From the NCBI RefSeq assembly GCF_014076495.1, contig NZ_CP043575.1, positions 3,100,001-3,164,000 of the forward strand: a stretch of 64,000 nt of DNA. The letters run 5' to 3'. The position numbers and the translations under genes are program-made. Positions 46,616 through 56,081 of this stretch are shown piece by piece. This DNA comes from Comamonas koreensis. GTDB taxonomy: Bacteria > Pseudomonadota > Gammaproteobacteria > Burkholderiales > Burkholderiaceae_C. Within the stretch, counting starts at the first letter, position 1. Every line of letters starts with the position of its first letter. Under the pieces are notes generated by a model. It made no database searches. It was not told the DNA's origin and worked only from the letters and a program-made list of their open reading frames with translations.

Positions 46616-47590
46616 ATGAGCTCTCGCGTTTATACCGGCCGTTTTGCCCCCTCGCCCACCGGCCCGCTGCATGCGGGCTCGCTGGTGGCGGCCCTGGCAT
46701 CCTGGCTCGATGCCCGCGCCCATGGCGGCACCTGGTTGCTGCGTATCGAAGATATCGACCCACCGCGCTGCCCGCCAGGCATGGACCAGGAAATCCTGCG
46801 CCAGCTCAATGCGCTGCAGCTGATCCCCGATGCGCCCCCGCAGTGGCAGTCAGCTCGCCATGGCCTCTATGCCCAGGCCCTGGCGCAGCTGCAGGCCGCT
46901 GGCTGGGCCTACCCCTGCGCCTGCACGCGCCGCGATATGGACGCCGCGCTCGCCGCGCAAGGCCATGTGCACGAGCGCCATGGCGAGCGCCCCTACCCGG
47001 GCACCTGCCGCGATGGCCTGCATGGCAAGACCGGTCGCAGCTGGCGCTTCCATACCCTGCACTACCAGCAGCATGCCAGCGCGCTGGCGGCCGAAGACGG
47101 CCAGTTGCCGACAGCCGATCACCCGGTGCTGCACAGCGACCAGCAGCTGCTGTGGCAAGACCGCTGGCTGGGCCCCCTGCAGCAGGACGTGGCCGCCAGC
47201 GTGGGTGATTTTCTGGTCCAGCGCGCCGATGGCCTCTGGGCCTACCAACTGGCTGTGGTGGTCGATGACGCCGCGCAAGGCATCAGCGATGTGGTGCGCG
47301 GCGCCGACCTGGCCGACAACACCCCGCGCCAGCTGCTGCTGCAGCGCGCGCTGGGCCTGCCAGCGCCCCGCTATATGCACACGCCCTTGGTGCTGCAGGC
47401 CGATGGCGAAAAGCTCTCCAAGCAATACGGCGCGCCAGCCGTCGTGGTCGACAGTGCCGAGCAGCGCATCGCCGTGCTGCGCCAGTCCGCCCAGCACCTG
47501 GGGCTGGAGGCGGGCGAGGCTAGCTCCATCCCCGATGCGCTGGCCGACTGGACGGCGCAATGGGCACGCCGCCACCTGGCCGCTACATGA
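46616..47590 (+). CDS. gluQ: Glutamyl-Q tRNA(Asp) synthetase
   Basis: A 324-residue truncated relative of glutamyl-tRNA synthetase that attaches glutamate to queuosine in tRNA(Asp). The class I signature is [14 protein letters not shown] (HAG in place of HIGH), with RIEDIDPPR, a Cys-rich zinc site beginning CAC at ~103-105, [18 protein letters not shown], and the KMSKS-like KLSKQ. The anticodon-binding domain of GluRS is absent, as expected. It converges on and overlaps the ferritin-like gene by eight bases. Confidence 0.95.
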
Positions 47591-48854
47591 AGTTGCGCGT
47601 GTGCAAGGAGGCCAGCTCCTGCGCATGGCCACGCTCAAAGCCCAGCCGCACCAGCTTGGTGTAGCGGCCATCGGCCATGTCCTGCATCAGCTGCTGCACG
47701 CGCTGGCTGCCCAGCGCCAGCGCATCGGCCGACATGGCGCCCGCGCCCACGAGGATCAACGCATCAAACACCTCTTCGTTCAGGCCTGATGTCCCAGCCA
47801 GCGCGTCATGGCGCGCCTCCACCGCCTGGGCCAGCCGGTGGCGATAATCGGGCTCCTGCTTCAAACGGTGCAGCAGGTGCGACATGCCCAGCGCCACATG
47901 GCGCGCCTCATCGCGGGCGGCCAGGCGGCAGATCTGGCGCGTCAATGGATCGGGCGCATAGGTCTGCAAGAACTGCAGCAGGTTGACAAAGCTGCCCTCG
48001 CCCAGCACCGAGAGCAAAAAGCCCGCGACCGAAAAATCCTTTTCCGCAAGCAGGCTGTGCAGCGAGGCCTGGCCGCCTGCGGTGGATAGTGCCGGCTCCC
48101 GCCCGTGGCGGCGAATGCGGCGGGTAAACACATCGATATGGCGCGCCTCATCGGCCACCTGGATCGCCAGCGCCGCCTGCAGCTCGCGGTAGTGCGGGTG
48201 CAGCTCACCCAGAAAGCGCGCCGGCACAATCAGCGCCGCATTCTCGTTCTCGACCATATAGGTCATCACCTGCACGATGGCGTCCTCGATCACCGCAGGT
48301 GGCTCAGGTGCCTGGTCCCAGTCGATGTCGGTGTCGGCATTCCATTGCGCAGCCACCGCCTGCGCGTACAGGTCCCCGGCCTGGTCGGACCAGAACTCGG
48401 CCTTGTCCTGCAGGCGAAAGGCAAAGGCCGGCGCGCCCGCCTCGACCGCGGCACCGCGCGCCGCCAGGCCCCAGGCCGGGTCGGCCTGTGCGGCCACCGC
48501 GCCGGGTTGGCTGGCATCGCTGTGGCCGGCCACGGCGGCATGGCGCCAGCGGCCCGCCTGCGCGCTGCCCCGCCGCACCAGCAAGGCCGGCTGCCGCAGC
48601 CAACCGGTCGGCGTTTGCAGCGCATGGCCCTGGGCCTGGCACCAGGCCGCCAGCTGCGCTTGCCAGCCCGGCGCCTGGCCGCTGACACGGATCGACTCGC
48701 CCACGGCCACGGCCGCCAGGCCGTGCTTGACCAGCAGGTGCGCACCGGCATCAAAGCCCAGCCGGCCCAAATCCACCAGTGGCATGCTGGCAAGGTCGGC
48801 CTGGCCTGGGATTGCAGGACCCGTACTGCTGGAGGGGGCTGGCGGTTTTTCCAT
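47583..48854 (-). CDS. Fusion of a TusA-like domain and a di-iron ferritin-like domain
   Basis: A 423-residue protein. Residues ~24-82 ([20 protein letters not shown]...VGESIRVSG...[16 protein letters not shown]) follow the beta-alpha pattern of TusA/SirA sulfur-carrier domains, including the ending WCQAQGHAL. The usual CPxP Cys is missing; GFDA stands in its place. Residues ~185-410 are a four-helix ferritin-like domain with a full ligand set for a di-iron centre: E202 or E204, E236 and H239 (DEARH), E286, E316 and H319 (a second DEARH). An oxygen-dependent oxidase or oxygenase role is inferred from this metal site. It is the third gene of a tight operon, five bases after the PhnD-like gene. 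I do not know a characterised homologue. Confidence 0.72.
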
Positions 48855-48859
48855 GGGCC

Positions 48860-49726
48860 TCAGTACCGGTAGTCCGCCGCCAGGATACGGCCCGCCTCAT
48901 CATAAAAGCGCTCATCGCGCACTGCACGGGACAAGGGTTCATAGCCCGAAGCGCGGCCGGGGTGCCAGACCTTGAGGCCTTCCAACTCCAGCAAGGGGCG
49001 AATCAGCGGGTCGTCCCAGGACATGGCCAGCAAGATCTCGGTAAAGCGCGCCGCATCGGCAGCGCTGAGACTGGGCCCGGCGGTCATATTGCAGTGGTCA
49101 AAAGGCTGCGAGGTGTCGAGCACGCGCGTGGTGCCTGCAGGCAGGGTCCCTTCGGCGGCAAAGGCCAGGTAGTTCTTGGCAACCATCCAGGACGCCGCAA
49201 TCTCACCGGTCACCATGGCCTTGGCCGCCAGGCGCTCGCCACCAATATGGTCGCCATGCTTGCCGCCCAGCACATCAAAGCGGCGCACCTGAAAATCCTG
49301 ACCCGCCAGCAGGCCGTGCTGGCGCAGGTGGTCCAGCGGGATCAAGGTGGCCTGGGGCGAATCAATGGCGCCAAAGCCCAGCGTCTGGCCGCGCAGGTCC
49401 GCCAGGGCCTGGGCGGGGCTGTCTGCGCGTACCACCAGCAGCGACTGCACATCCATGTCGGTGTCACGCATCGCGATCGATCGCACCTGCTGGCCAGCGG
49501 CCCGCGCCATCAGCTCGGCGCGCACAAAGGCGAGCGGCGAGTTCCAGGCCAGTTGCACCGTGCCATCCATCAGCGCCTCTGTGAGCGACTCATAGTTGGA
49601 ATACAGCACATAGTCAAAGTACAGACCTTGCTCGATGAAATGGGCCTTGAAGCCCTCCCAGATGGTGATGACCTTGGGCGCGTAGGCCACGGCGCCCATC
49701 TTGAGGGTGGTGTAGGAAACGGTCAT
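48860..49726 (-). CDS. PhnD-like substrate-binding protein without signal peptide
   Basis: A 288-residue protein of the PhnD/SsuA/transferrin type II periplasmic-binding fold: LKMGAVAYAPKVITIWEGFKAHFIEQG, NYESLTEALMDGTVQLAWNSPLAFVRAE, VVRADSPAQALADLRGQTLGFGAIDSPQATLIPL and MVTGEIAASWMVAKNYLAF. Unlike transport proteins it begins directly with the first strand of the fold and has no signal peptide or lipobox, and no permease or ATPase genes are nearby, so a cytosolic ligand-binding or enzymatic role is likely. Transporter homologues bind phosphonates, sulfonates or similar anions; the ligand here is unknown. It sits between an acyl-CoA dehydrogenase-fold gene (37 bp upstream) and the TusA/ferritin-like gene (5 bp downstream). 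Confidence 0.78.
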   Translation of the reverse strand: MTVSYTTLKMGAVAYAPKVITIWEGFKAHFIEQGLYFDYVLYSNYESLTEALMDGTVQLAWNSPLAFVRAELMARAAGQQVRSIAMRDTDMDVQSLLVVRADSPAQALADLRGQTLGFGAIDSPQATLIPLDHLRQHGLLAGQDFQVRRFDVLGGKHGDHIGGERLAAKAMVTGEIAASWMVAKNYLAFAAEGTLPAGTTRVLDTSQPFDHCNMTAGPSLSAADAARFTEILLAMSWDDPLIRPLLELEGLKVWHPGRASGYEPLSRAVRDERFYDEAGRILAADYRY

Positions 49727-49763
49727 GGATAGATGTCTCTCCGGTTGGTTGGGTCACGGGGTC

Positions 49764-50876
49764 TCAGGCTGCGGCGTCGCACAGCGCCTTGCCCAGCAGG
49801 TCATAGATCACATCGGTGGTGGGGGCCATCACGGAGGCCGCGCGGGCATCGCGGAACAGCCGCTCAATGCCCAGGTCCTTGCGGAAGGCTGCGCCGCCGC
49901 AGACGCGCATCGCCGTATCGCTCACCTCCAGGGCCGCCTCGGCCGCAGCGGCCTTGCATTGCAAGAGCCGGGTTTTGGCATCGGGGCGCCCCGCCAGCAC
50001 CGCCTGCACGGCGTCATCGCGCAGCAAGCGGGCCTGGTCGGCCTTGAGCTGGGCCTTGGCGAGGTAAGCCCGGATGGTCGGCAGGTCGGCCAGGCCGCTG
50101 CCATTTTCGGCAAAGCGGGTGTTGGCCACATGCTGCACAGCGCGGCGCAGCACGCCTTGCATCAGGCCCACCGACGTGGTGGCAATCAAGGTGGGGAAAT
50201 ACGGCATCAGGTAGCGGGCCTTGACGTCCTCGCCCTGGCCGTCGTCTCCCAAGCGGCAGGCCAGCGGCACGGCTACATCCCGCGCAATGATCGGCGATGA
50301 GGCATTGCCGCGCAGTCCCATGCCATCAAAGCGCGATGGGATCTGCAGCCCGGGCAGGCGGCTGTCGACCAGCCACAGCGTATTGCCCTCCCCCGTGCTA
50401 GCCCGCGAGATCCAGACATAGGAGTCGGCCTCGCCCGCCGAGGTGATCATGCTTTTGTGGGCATTGAGCAGCACCGCGTCCTGGCCCTGCGCAGCGGCGG
50501 TACCGGTGGGTGCCCAGATATGGCTGCGCGAGCCGGTCTCGGACACCGCCAGGGTGGTGATATGGCGGCCCTGCGCAATGGCGCGCCGGGTGTCTTGTGC
50601 CGCAAAAGGCTCGATCAGTGCCACGCCGCAGTAGTGCATGGTCAGCACCATGGCCGTGCAGGGGCAGTCCTGGGCAATGCGCTCGACCACTTGTACCGCT
50701 TCAGGCAGGCCCGCGCCCATGCCGCCTACTTCGGGCGCGCTGATCAGGCCCAGCAGGCCCTGGCTGCCCAAGGCCTGCAGCGCCTGGCGCGGGTAGACCG
50801 CCTGGCTATCGGTATGCGCGGCCGCCGGCGCAATGAGGTCGCGCACGATCGGCTCCAACGACGAAAGAATGTCCAT
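49764..50876 (-). CDS. Acyl-CoA dehydrogenase-fold flavoprotein, atypical
   Basis: A 370-residue protein with the acyl-CoA dehydrogenase architecture: an N-terminal helical domain (GLLGLISAPEVGGMGAGL), a beta domain (TLAVSETGSRSHIW, LNAHKSMITSAGEADSYVWI, FDGMGLRGNASSPI) and a C-terminal helical FAD-binding domain (MRVCGGAAFRKDLGIERLFRDARAASVM). The position of the catalytic Glu in the usual YEGTNEI motif is A351 here (VMAPTTDV), so a standard alpha-beta dehydrogenation is unlikely. Flavin monooxygenases of this fold, such as DszC or SfnC types, also lack this Glu. It is the first gene of the three-gene operon with the PhnD-like and TusA/ferritin-like genes. Confidence 0.82.
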   Translation of the reverse strand: MDILSSLEPIVRDLIAPAAAHTDSQAVYPRQALQALGSQGLLGLISAPEVGGMGAGLPEAVQVVERIAQDCPCTAMVLTMHYCGVALIEPFAAQDTRRAIAQGRHITTLAVSETGSRSHIWAPTGTAAAQGQDAVLLNAHKSMITSAGEADSYVWISRASTGEGNTLWLVDSRLPGLQIPSRFDGMGLRGNASSPIIARDVAVPLACRLGDDGQGEDVKARYLMPYFPTLIATTSVGLMQGVLRRAVQHVANTRFAENGSGLADLPTIRAYLAKAQLKADQARLLRDDAVQAVLAGRPDAKTRLLQCKAAAAEAALEVSDTAMRVCGGAAFRKDLGIERLFRDARAASVMAPTTDVIYDLLGKALCDAAA

Positions 50877-53345: not shown

Positions 53346-54137
53346 TCAACCCGCAGTGACAATGCTGACGCCGCCATCAACGGCCAGGCATTGGCCGGTG
53401 ATGTGTTTGCCCGCATCGCTGGCCAGCAGCACCGCAGAACCTTTCAAATCATCATCCCCGCCCAAGCGGCCCAGCGGCACGCCGGCCGTCATCGCATCCT
53501 CGCCGATCTGGTCAATCAGGCCATTGGCCATCTTGGTGCGGAAAAAACCCGGTGCGATGGCATTGACGCGGATGCCGTAGTGCCCCCATTCGGCAGCGAG
53601 CGCGCGGGTGAAGTTGATGACCGCGCCCTTGCTGGTGTTGTAGGCGATGGTCTTCATGCCCACCGGGTTGCCGCCCAGCCCGGCAATCGATGCCAGGTTG
53701 ATGATGGCGCCCTGCCGGCGCGCAATCATGCAGCGCTTGGCCAGCTGCTGCGACAGCAGAAAATAGCCGCGTACATTCAGGTTCATCACCTTGTCCCAAG
53801 CGGCGGCCGGGTGGTCTTCGGCCGGCGCCCCCCAGCTGGCACCGGCGTTGTTGACCAGAATGTCCACATCGCCCACGCGCCCCAGCACCTCGATGGCCAG
53901 GCGCTCGATCTCGCTGTCGACCGCGCAGTCGGCAGCAATCCAGCGCGCATCAATGCCTGCGCCTCCCAGCTCGGCCACCGCCGCTTCCAGCTCGCTGGCC
54001 TTGCGGCTGGTCACCACCACCTTGGCGCCAGCCTCGCCCAGCGCATGGGCCAGCTGCAGCCCCAGGCCGCGCGAGCCGCCCGTCACCAGCGCCGTCTTGC
54101 CGGTCAGATCCAATAATTGCCCAATCTTGCGCGTCAT
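53346..54137 (-). CDS. Short-chain dehydrogenase/reductase (SDR)
   Basis: A 263-residue classical SDR. Cofactor loop TGGSRGLGLQLA (TGxxxGxG), NNAGASWG, active-site Ser in INLASIAGLGG, and YNTSK as the catalytic YxxxK; the C-terminal PLGRLGGDDDLKGSAVLLASDAGKHITGQCLAVDGG is typical of 3-oxoacyl-reductase-like members. TSRK after the second strand suggests NADP(H). It follows an acyl-CoA synthetase gene by 59 bp on the same strand, so a role in fatty or other acyl-CoA metabolism is likely; the substrate is not assignable. Confidence 0.9.
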   Translation of the reverse strand: MTRKIGQLLDLTGKTALVTGGSRGLGLQLAHALGEAGAKVVVTSRKASELEAAVAELGGAGIDARWIAADCAVDSEIERLAIEVLGRVGDVDILVNNAGASWGAPAEDHPAAAWDKVMNLNVRGYFLLSQQLAKRCMIARRQGAIINLASIAGLGGNPVGMKTIAYNTSKGAVINFTRALAAEWGHYGIRVNAIAPGFFRTKMANGLIDQIGEDAMTAGVPLGRLGGDDDLKGSAVLLASDAGKHITGQCLAVDGGVSIVTAG

Positions 54138-54196
54138 GCAAAGGCCTCCTGGTAGGGCTGAAAAGGTCGTTCAGCGAGTCATTCAAAATGCAGCCA

Positions 54197-55837
54197 TCAG
54201 GCTGGCAGCACATAGTCCTTGAACTGCTCACGCAGCCGGGTCTTGAGCATCTTGCCGGTGGCACCCAGCGGAATGGCCTCCACAAAAATCACGGCATCGG
54301 GGATCTGCCACTTGGCCATCTTGCCCTGGTAGAAGGCGAGCAAGTCCTCCTCGCTCACGGCAGCGCCCTTCTTGAGCGCTACAAAAACCACCGGCCGTTC
54401 GTCCCACTTGGGATGGGGCATGCCCACGCAGGCAGCCATCGCGACGGCCGGGTGGGCCATCGCAATGTTCTCGATATCGATGGAGCTGATCCATTCGCCC
54501 CCGGACTTGATCACATCCTTGCTGCGGTCAGTGATCTGCATAAAGCCATCGGCATCGATGGTGGCCACATCGCCGGTGGGAAACCAATCGCGCCCCTGCG
54601 CATCAGTGACCAGCGGCGAGGCGCCCTCGCTGCGGTAGTAGTCCGCCACCACCCAGGGGCCGCGCACCAGCAGGTCGCCATAGGTCTTGCCATCCCAGGG
54701 CTGGTCCTGGCCGTCGTCACCGACGATCTTCATGTCCACGCCAAAGATGACCCGGCCCTGTTTGGCCAGCAGCTGCGCCTGGGTGTCGGCCGGCAGGTCC
54801 AGGTGCTTGTGCTTCAAGGTGCAGACGGTGCCCAGCGGGCTGAGTTCGGTCATACCCCAGGCATGCAGCACGGTGACGCCATAGTCCTCCTGGAAGGTCT
54901 TGATCATCGCCGGCGGGCAGGCCGAGCCGCCAATGATGGTGCGCTGCAGGCTGCCAAAGCGCAGGCCCTGGCTTTGCACATGGCTCAGCAGCATCTGCCA
55001 GACCGTGGGCACGCCAGCGGCAAAGGTTACCTTCTCGGCCTCCATCAGCGCGTAGACCGAGGGGCCATCGAGCGCCGGGCCGGGAAACACCAGCTTGGCG
55101 CCATTGAGCGGCCCGGAAAACGGCAGGCCCCAGGCGTTGACATGGAACATCGGCACGACCGGCAGCACCACATCGCGCGAGGAGATGTCCATCACATCGG
55201 GCAGCGAAGCGCCATAGGCATGCAAGACGGTGCTGCGGTGCGAGTACAGCACGGCCTTGGGATTGCCCGTGGTGCCGCTGGTGTAGCACATGCCGCAGGC
55301 GGTATTTTCGTCAAACTCGGGCCACTGGTAGGCGCCGTCGGCAGCCGCAATCCAGGCCTCGTAGGCCACCAGGCCGGGGATGCCGGCATCGGCAGGCAGT
55401 TGGTCAGCATCACACAGCGCCACCCATTGGCGTACCGTCGGGCAGCGCGCGTGGATGGCCTGCACGATGGGCAGGAAGCAGCTGTCAAAACACAGCACCT
55501 CGTCCTCGGCATGGTTGACGATCCAGACCACCTGGTCGGGGTGCAGCCGGGGGTTCAAGGTATGGATGACCCGGCCCGAGCCGCCCACGCCGTAGTACAG
55601 CTCCATATGGCGGTAGCCATTCCAGGCCAGACTCGCCACGCGCGCGCCCGCGGCCAGCCCCATGCCATCCAGGGCCTGCGCCAGCTGGCGGGCGCGCTGC
55701 GCAAAGTCGCCATAGGTGTAGCGGTGGATATCACCTTCCACGCGGCGCGAGACGATTTCGGTATCGCGGTGGTAACGCTCCGCAAACTCCAGCAGGTTGG
55801 AGGTCAGCAGTTGCTGCTTTTGCATCAGGCCTAGCAT
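54197..55837 (-). CDS. Acyl-CoA synthetase (AMP-forming)
   Basis: A 546-residue ANL-superfamily ligase that activates a carboxylic acid through an acyl-AMP to its CoA thioester. The phosphate loop is [18 protein letters not shown], with [11 protein letters not shown], the hinge [32 protein letters not shown], and the catalytic Lys near the C terminus in [17 protein letters not shown]. The long insertion and motif style are those of medium/long-chain fatty acyl-CoA synthetases. ATG 55837 has AGGAG five to six bases upstream. It forms a pair with the downstream SDR. Confidence 0.92.
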
Positions 55838-56081
55838 TGGGTCTCCTTGTGGTATGGCCAGTGGCGGCGCGTTGCCCCCACCGGCATGCATCTGTTTTTA
55901 TAGCGCGTGCGCGCAGCAAAGGGCATCGTAGCAACCCGCACTGCCAGCGGGTTGCATGAGCAAATGCCTGCAGCATATGACGAGGCATACAGTACAGGCA
56001 GGCGCGCGCAGTGCGCAGCGCGCGCTGTCACCTAGGCTGCAGCACTTAGAATCAGGCGCTGCTTTCGTCTCACACCGCCCC

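Follow-up and report, generated by a model that had tools for sequence, protein, structure and literature searches.

How bacteria acquire trace selenium is largely an open question, and a review from 2022 notes in its main text that a high-affinity system for selenium transport had yet to be identified (PMC9312934). Anaerobes are reported to salvage methyl-selenium through corrinoid-dependent type I mlp clusters, for which the main text of PMC10418091 cites genetic evidence from Methanococcus voltae, and the same text describes selenide methylation as possible without an enzyme. YedE, YedF, DUF3343 and LysR_Se are predicted selenium genes linked by their neighborhood to SelD, the selenophosphate synthetase, and YedF is described in the main text as carrying a SirA/TusA-like domain (PMC5322559). 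Other candidate selenium genes are named in PMC9312934, whose main text contains neither acyl-CoA nor ferritin. Here we describe a compact three-gene operon from a 64,000-nucleotide stretch of the Comamonas koreensis genome (contig NZ_CP043575.1, positions 3,100,001 to 3,164,000; hereafter the window). The operon probably helps cells to obtain or process selenium in a manner so far undescribed and, being tied to SelD, gives named candidate genes for this task.

The three genes lie on the minus strand, separated by 37 and 5 bp, and the open reading frame (ORF) coordinates bear out the tight operon recognized in the initial annotation. The first gene (ACAD, 49764..50876) encodes a 370-residue flavoprotein of the acyl-CoA-dehydrogenase fold, as judged from its ORF and family scans. 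The second (SBP, 48860..49726) encodes a 288-residue binding protein of the PhnD/PtxB fold, recognized by family scans and predicted fold, and the last (DI, 47583..48854) a 423-residue protein in which a TusA-like domain is fused to a ferritin-like di-iron domain. YedE, YedF, DUF3343 and LysR_Se differ in that none of them is an ACAD, a cytosolic SBP or a di-iron protein; the main text of PMC5322559 does not mention acyl-CoA, ferritin, AurF, OsmC or PhnD, and it speaks of substrate binding just for a LysR domain. The type I mlp clusters resemble the operon in being accessory to selenium users, and their methyl-transfer chemistry is comparable with that of a MetE-like protein which partners the operon in Firmicutes, but they use corrinoid-dependent methyltransferases. 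In the main text of PMC10418091, acyl-CoA dehydrogenase, OsmC, substrate-binding, MetE and PhnD go unmentioned. The mycobacterial Rv1679/Rv1680/Rv1681 group (NF049984, NF049985 and NF049973) shares with the operon the two protein families, with the ACAD and SBP genes adjacent in both. NCBIfam matches the window ACAD best to Rv1679 and the window SBP to Rv1680, each below the curated cut-off (337 bits vs. 600 for ACAD, 216 vs. 400 for SBP). No literature was found on the function of this group, judging by titles and the starts of abstracts, and none on the ACAD-SBP-DI operon, judging largely by listings and abstract starts, with most subscription papers outside the coverage.

ACAD, SBP and DI form a conserved system, so that the first of the two conditions under which the initial annotation would have given up its operon hypothesis does not apply. 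Conservation was followed in 83 loci, namely the best 80 of 117 SBP relatives in species genomes and three plasmid loci; gaps and gene orders were counted in 82 of them, L076 being dropped under a filter at 75% of the SBP length. The three genes stand together in 63 of the 82, in the order ACAD-SBP-DI (60 loci), SBP-ACAD-DI (2) or SBP-DI-ACAD (1). This set is found in Betaproteobacteria, Luteimonas, [Pseudomonas] boreopolis and two planctomycete metagenome-assembled genomes (MAGs), and the nearest SBP matches among the best 80 of the species-genome scan come from Comamonas (94-96% identity). The remaining 19 are seven Firmicutes loci in which no DI adjoins the pair, two of mycobacterial type, that of Miltoncostaea, three whose frames are missing or broken, and six near contig ends. 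The ACAD-SBP pair is also found in actinobacterial plasmids and in Firmicutes: it is the constant core, and the third partner changes. Three copies are incomplete: L060 shows DI by its C-terminal portion alone, in L061 no DI is seen and ACAD is a remnant, and L067 gives just a short match to the N-terminal region of ACAD. They lie on otherwise long contigs and were kept unaltered, and both assembly error and decay are possible.

The genes beside these loci point to selenium. Neighboring ORFs were clustered across the 83 loci, and the clusters were labeled from the Miltoncostaea plasmid, on which selA, selB and selD are annotated. One or more of these genes lies within ~6 kb in 15 of the 83 loci, SelD in 10 and SelA or SelB without SelD in 5. 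SelD comes directly next on the same strand, giving ACAD-SBP-DI-SelD, in L027, L029, L031, L037, L047 and L070, while L043 has SBP-DI-ACAD-SelD, also on one strand. SelA and SelB are upstream of ACAD-SBP-DI in L018, L020 and L024, as is SelA in L069, and SelB is near the operon in L011. In Luteimonas (L013 and L014), SelD, SelB and SelA are on the opposite strand, and in Miltoncostaea the selenium genes are ~6 kb off, again on the opposite strand. A Hydrogenophaga MAG contains a continuous selenium island (L069:2699-16778), which starts with formate dehydrogenase genes, SelA, ACAD, SBP and DI, and goes on with a sulfide-dehydrogenase-like flavin adenine dinucleotide protein of the flavocytochrome type, a selenate-type binding protein, an ATPase, two permease ORFs and SelB. 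In a genome of 5 Mb, a single-copy gene lies within a given 16 kb by chance at ~0.3% of loci, so that 0.26 SelD adjacencies are expected in 80 loci, treated as independent, against 9 observed. On the tree of 82 SBPs, adjacency to selenium genes requires 8 changes of state, at least 6 of which are forced by well supported branches. Selenium adjacency is therefore not one inherited event, although some of the changes may be losses.

The same link appears in genome content. Host-genome profile counts, made with curated cut-offs, cover 50 of the 80 genomes behind the loci. SelD is over its cut-off in 48, and the two misses (L034 and L042) are MAGs, one with a 47-residue SelD fragment. SelA and SelU each pass in 35 of the 50 and at least one of them in 46; the four genomes lacking both are MAGs or an uncultured assembly. 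The operon thus tracks SelD rather than one particular selenium use, and it depends on neither SelA nor SelU by itself. A stand-alone SelD-using trait was rejected on the same 46 of 50 genomes. Because SelD is common in the window's order, we rely on the neighborhood and on groups in which SelD is uncommon. In the Gemella-order sample, SelD occurs in 11 of 80 genomes and SBP in 7, all within the 11 (hypergeometric value 1e-7, shared descent ignored). In the Luteimonas-family sample, SelD occurs in 10 of 198 genomes and DI in 2, both with SelD. Taken with the neighborhood, this co-occurrence makes a selenium link of the operon very likely, and the organosulfur or organophosphorus substrate put forward in the initial annotation was not supported, as both lines of evidence point to selenium instead.

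The third partner changes with the host. The seven Firmicutes loci without DI beside the pair are from Gemella, Finegoldia, Parvimonas, Anaerococcus and a Tissierellia bacterium, and several of these hosts are anaerobes. The absence of DI refers to the loci only, as DI was not searched for elsewhere in those genomes. Their next genes fall into two clusters; profiles were run on L077 (Gemella) and L084 (Anaerococcus), and in both loci the cluster members are over cut-off as MetE-like and OsmC-like proteins. The initial annotation had supposed an oxygen-using flavin/iron pathway with a sensor or carrier; the folds are compatible with it, but oxygen use is not general, because ACAD-SBP occurs without DI beside the pair in these seven loci. 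In Mycolicibacterium (M. vanbaalenii plasmid), the pair is accompanied by a radical-S-adenosylmethionine (SAM) protein that passes the Rv1681 cut-off and by a membrane protein of the Rv1678 type, not by DI. In the Miltoncostaea locus (L002:12914-14844), SBP is followed by a DUF2515 protein and then by a radical SAM/SPASM protein, again not DI. Two Gemella genomes have a second ACAD-SBP pair (L099:7523-9504 and L100:276-2257), whose SBP is 55% identical to the first; it adjoins a Na+/H+-antiporter-family protein, with a rhodanese-domain ORF further on (profiles for L099), and no MetE-like or OsmC-like ORF is seen beside it. Finegoldia magna has three consecutive ACAD copies before SBP (L078:4569-7976).

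SBP has the fold of phosphonate/phosphite ATP-binding cassette (ABC) binding proteins of the PhnD/PtxB type in its predicted structure (predicted local distance difference test, pLDDT, 91). The closest solved folds are PtxB, HtxB, ArrX and PhnD, with AioX also among the nearest, and they include phosphite, phosphonate and arsenic-oxyanion binders. The idea that it lacks both a transporter and an export signal holds as far as the former goes within the 8 window neighbor ORFs scanned, none of which is an ABC permease or ATPase gene; as for the latter, no signal is visible on inspection of the sequence and predicted model, no signal-peptide program having been used. A phosphonate uptake system was rejected, since no transporter is found among these neighbors. 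The selenate ABC binding proteins of TIGR04553 are profile-related to SBP, but the window SBP, at 49 bits, stays below their cut-off (250). The selenate-type protein of the L069 island scores 360 bits, looks exported by inspection and has its own transporter ORFs adjoining, unlike the window SBP. An alignment of 43 rows (the window and 42 of the 82 loci, hand-picked, leaving out plasmid loci L002-L004) shows as invariant N62-S63-P64-L65, R87-D88, D122-S123-P124-Q125, H157-G158-D159-H160 and D210-H211-C212. Within the loop KHGDHIGGE (residues 156-164; 49235..49261, minus strand), G162, G163 and E164 are invariant as well, and the region before and at KHGDH is poorly modeled (pLDDT 59 for residues 151-160). 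Cys212 (49091..49093, minus strand) belongs to the DHC motif, whose HC part recurs in both mycobacterial-type SBPs. The S-T-S stretch of the phosphorus-anion binders PtxB and PhnD aligns with S-P-Q in SBP. Because the invariant residues are unlike that stretch, the alignment suggests a ligand other than a phosphorus anion.

ACAD has the three-domain acyl-CoA dehydrogenase fold, with the Pfam N, M and C domains all over cut-off, and its weak profile matches include SfnB and DszC. Where short-chain ACAD has YEGT, the window protein aligns with MAPT (residues 350-353; 49818..49829, minus strand), and the catalytic Glu is missing. In the 29 aligned rows (the window and 28 of 80, hand-picked), position 351 is Ala in 27, the window included, Gly in 1 and Ser in 1, and never Glu, in keeping with the loss noticed from the single sequence. 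Ordinary beta-oxidation was rejected given this loss and a three-gene operon without a further acyl-CoA enzyme.

The faint TusA domain of DI (~residues 26-95; 48570..48779, minus strand; bounds estimated from the strands and helices of the model) scores 11.7 bits in the window row against a cut-off of 28.6. The TusA profile reaches E up to 1 in 27 of 35 aligned rows (the window and 34 of 65, hand-picked), the best at 3.4e-6. The sulfur-accepting Cys of TusA is borne by a CPxP motif, and none of the 35 rows has Cys at that place. The ferritin-like di-iron domain (~residues 183-420; 47595..48308, minus strand) contains both ExxH motifs, as seen in the alignment and predicted structure. The first EARH (E236-H239; 48138..48149, minus strand) is invariant in the 35 rows; in the second (E316-H319; 47898..47909, minus strand) E316, R318 and H319 are invariant, with Gly in place of A317 in 2 of the rows. 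Both are predicted to supply iron ligands, and the initial reading of DI as a Cys-less TusA-like domain joined to a complete di-iron site stands. The family scan gives an AurF-like match just under the Pfam cut-off (26.6 bits vs. 29.6), and aldehyde-deformylating oxygenase and VlmB are matched by the predicted structure (pLDDT 82), a comparison dominated by the ferritin-like domain and speaking for that domain alone. DI differs from AurF/VlmB and aldehyde-deformylating oxygenase by its TusA-like N-terminal domain and an invariant C-terminal LHTRNFM. At protein level it has at least 4284 relatives among 7996 scored candidates; among the 120 listed, most of those with a name are called ferritin-like domain-containing protein, some hypothetical protein and one AurF.

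A model can be proposed from these features. We give about even weight to the operon being an accessory selenium module, with an ACAD-SBP core and a variable partner, that serves SelD, and we lean slightly toward a position upstream of SelD, as a supply of usable selenium. The presence of SelA or SelU in 46 of the 50 genomes fits such a step before SelD. Inside the cell, ACAD and SBP would bind a small selenium-containing compound and work on it chemically; DI would add an oxygen-dependent oxidation in proteobacteria and planctomycetes, and in Firmicutes a MetE-like zinc protein and an OsmC-like protein would replace it. The product would be inorganic selenium, either selenide or a carrier-bound equivalent, usable by SelD, which would then serve whichever selenium trait is present, selenocysteine or 2-selenouridine. 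The likeliest substrate would be organic, perhaps methylated, selenium: organoselenium is a tentative assignment that falls somewhat short of even weight, and methyl-selenium in particular is possible though doubtful. The methyl-selenium salvage of anaerobes (PMC10418091) offers a precedent. The MetE-like partner would fit methyl transfer, and the di-iron partner oxidative release. A more detailed scheme, which we regard as rather unlikely in its full form, is an aerobic, oxygen-dependent selenium salvage in which SBP, through its His/Asp/Cys site, would act as intracellular carrier or enzyme partner with the base-less ACAD, the TusA-like/di-iron protein would release selenium for SelD, and the zinc MetE-like protein would replace oxygen in anaerobes as methyl acceptor. 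If the model is right, it suggests a role for the ACAD-SBP pair common to mycobacterial-type, Firmicutes and proteobacterial loci, and a binding-protein fold would have been recruited for intracellular chemistry. Comamonas is an accessible host genus, with formate dehydrogenase activity and tRNA selenouridine as simple readouts.

Several observations weigh against this model. No selenium gene is near in 68 of the 83 loci, some of them on short contigs, and the count of adjacent loci is inflated by L031/L070 and L013/L014, which have identical SBPs and are hardly independent. Other neighbor clusters recur as well, all from large superfamilies, and we take them by judgment to be short-chain dehydrogenase/reductase (SDR; 13 of 83), ABC ATPase (10), histidine kinase (7) and response regulator (6). 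In the window itself, none of the 8 neighbor ORFs scanned by profile gives a selenium pointer, and to our knowledge the neighbor genes have no selenium role. The host genome (5.2 Mb, single contig) has selD over cut-off, with SelB by profile close to it, and the two sit elsewhere, not at the operon. In the window's order, SelD occurs in 250 of 349 genomes and DI in 7, all 7 with SelD, an overlap (p 0.09) that is weak since SelD is common there; all p values given here ignore shared descent. The many SelD genomes without the operon in that order, and the 4 of 11 SelD genomes of the Gemella order without SBP, count further against it, and the operon is therefore not needed for selenium use. In the mycobacterial-type SBPs (L003 and L004), NTNLA, DSAHA and GDTGRSE replace NSPLA, DSPQA and GDHIGGE, and there are no selenium genes among the displayed neighbors of these pairs. 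Finally, every step of the chemistry proposed is an inference.

The main rival explanation places the operon downstream of SelD: SBP would hold selenophosphate, a phosphonate-like anion, and ACAD and DI would assemble or alter a small molecule that contains selenium. This would agree with the gene order of seven loci, of which two are near-copies, where SelD closes the run of neighboring genes on one strand, and with the phosphite, phosphonate and arsenic-oxyanion binders among the nearest folds of SBP. However, the replacement of S-T-S by S-P-Q speaks against it, as does the adjacent SelD being the sole one over cut-off in L027, L029, L031, L037 and L043 (hand-matched). SelA or SelU in 46 of 50 genomes gives that SelD another use, and no shared scaffold-making gene is recognized among the 60 neighbor clusters listed, so we consider a downstream role unlikely. 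It is quite unlikely that the operon belongs to an organosulfur or organophosphorus pathway with an indirect selenium link. The weak ACAD matches to SfnB and DszC, the phosphorus anions bound by SBP relatives and the flavocytochrome sulfide-dehydrogenase-like ORF after DI in L069 would suit such a pathway, and the TusA-like, MetE-like and OsmC-like partners are from thiol-handling families, but the selA/selB/selD neighborhood is repeated in several gene orders, and the co-occurrence with SelD holds even where SelD is uncommon.

Supply itself could also be the wrong function. ArrX and AioX, among the nearest folds of SBP, are arsenic-responsive proteins; with Cys212 and the His residues of SBP invariant, and histidine kinase and response regulator ORFs beside some loci (7 and 6 of 83), the operon might protect against reactive selenium (selenide, selenite) or sense it. 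Such a role appears improbable for a system whose constant partner is an enzyme-like flavoprotein, whose DI is lacking in most of the SelD-bearing genomes sampled from the order, and for which no efflux gene is seen among the 60 neighbor clusters listed. Formate dehydrogenase genes do stand beside the Ideonella and Hydrogenophaga loci (profile-confirmed for L069), but SelA is over cut-off in just 35 of the 50 genomes, and it is very improbable that the operon serves the maturation of selenocysteine formate dehydrogenase only.

Around the operon, the 8 profile-scanned window neighbors are pirin, a LysR regulator, flavin amine-oxidase-like and tRNA-synthetase-like proteins, a methyltransferase, an AstE/AspA protein, an SDR and an AMP-binding ligase. 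The ligase and the SDR lie at 53346-55891, separated from the operon by two unrelated genes. At the other end, the DI gene overlaps a convergent tRNA-synthetase-like (GluQ-like) ORF by 8 bp (window positions 47583-47590).

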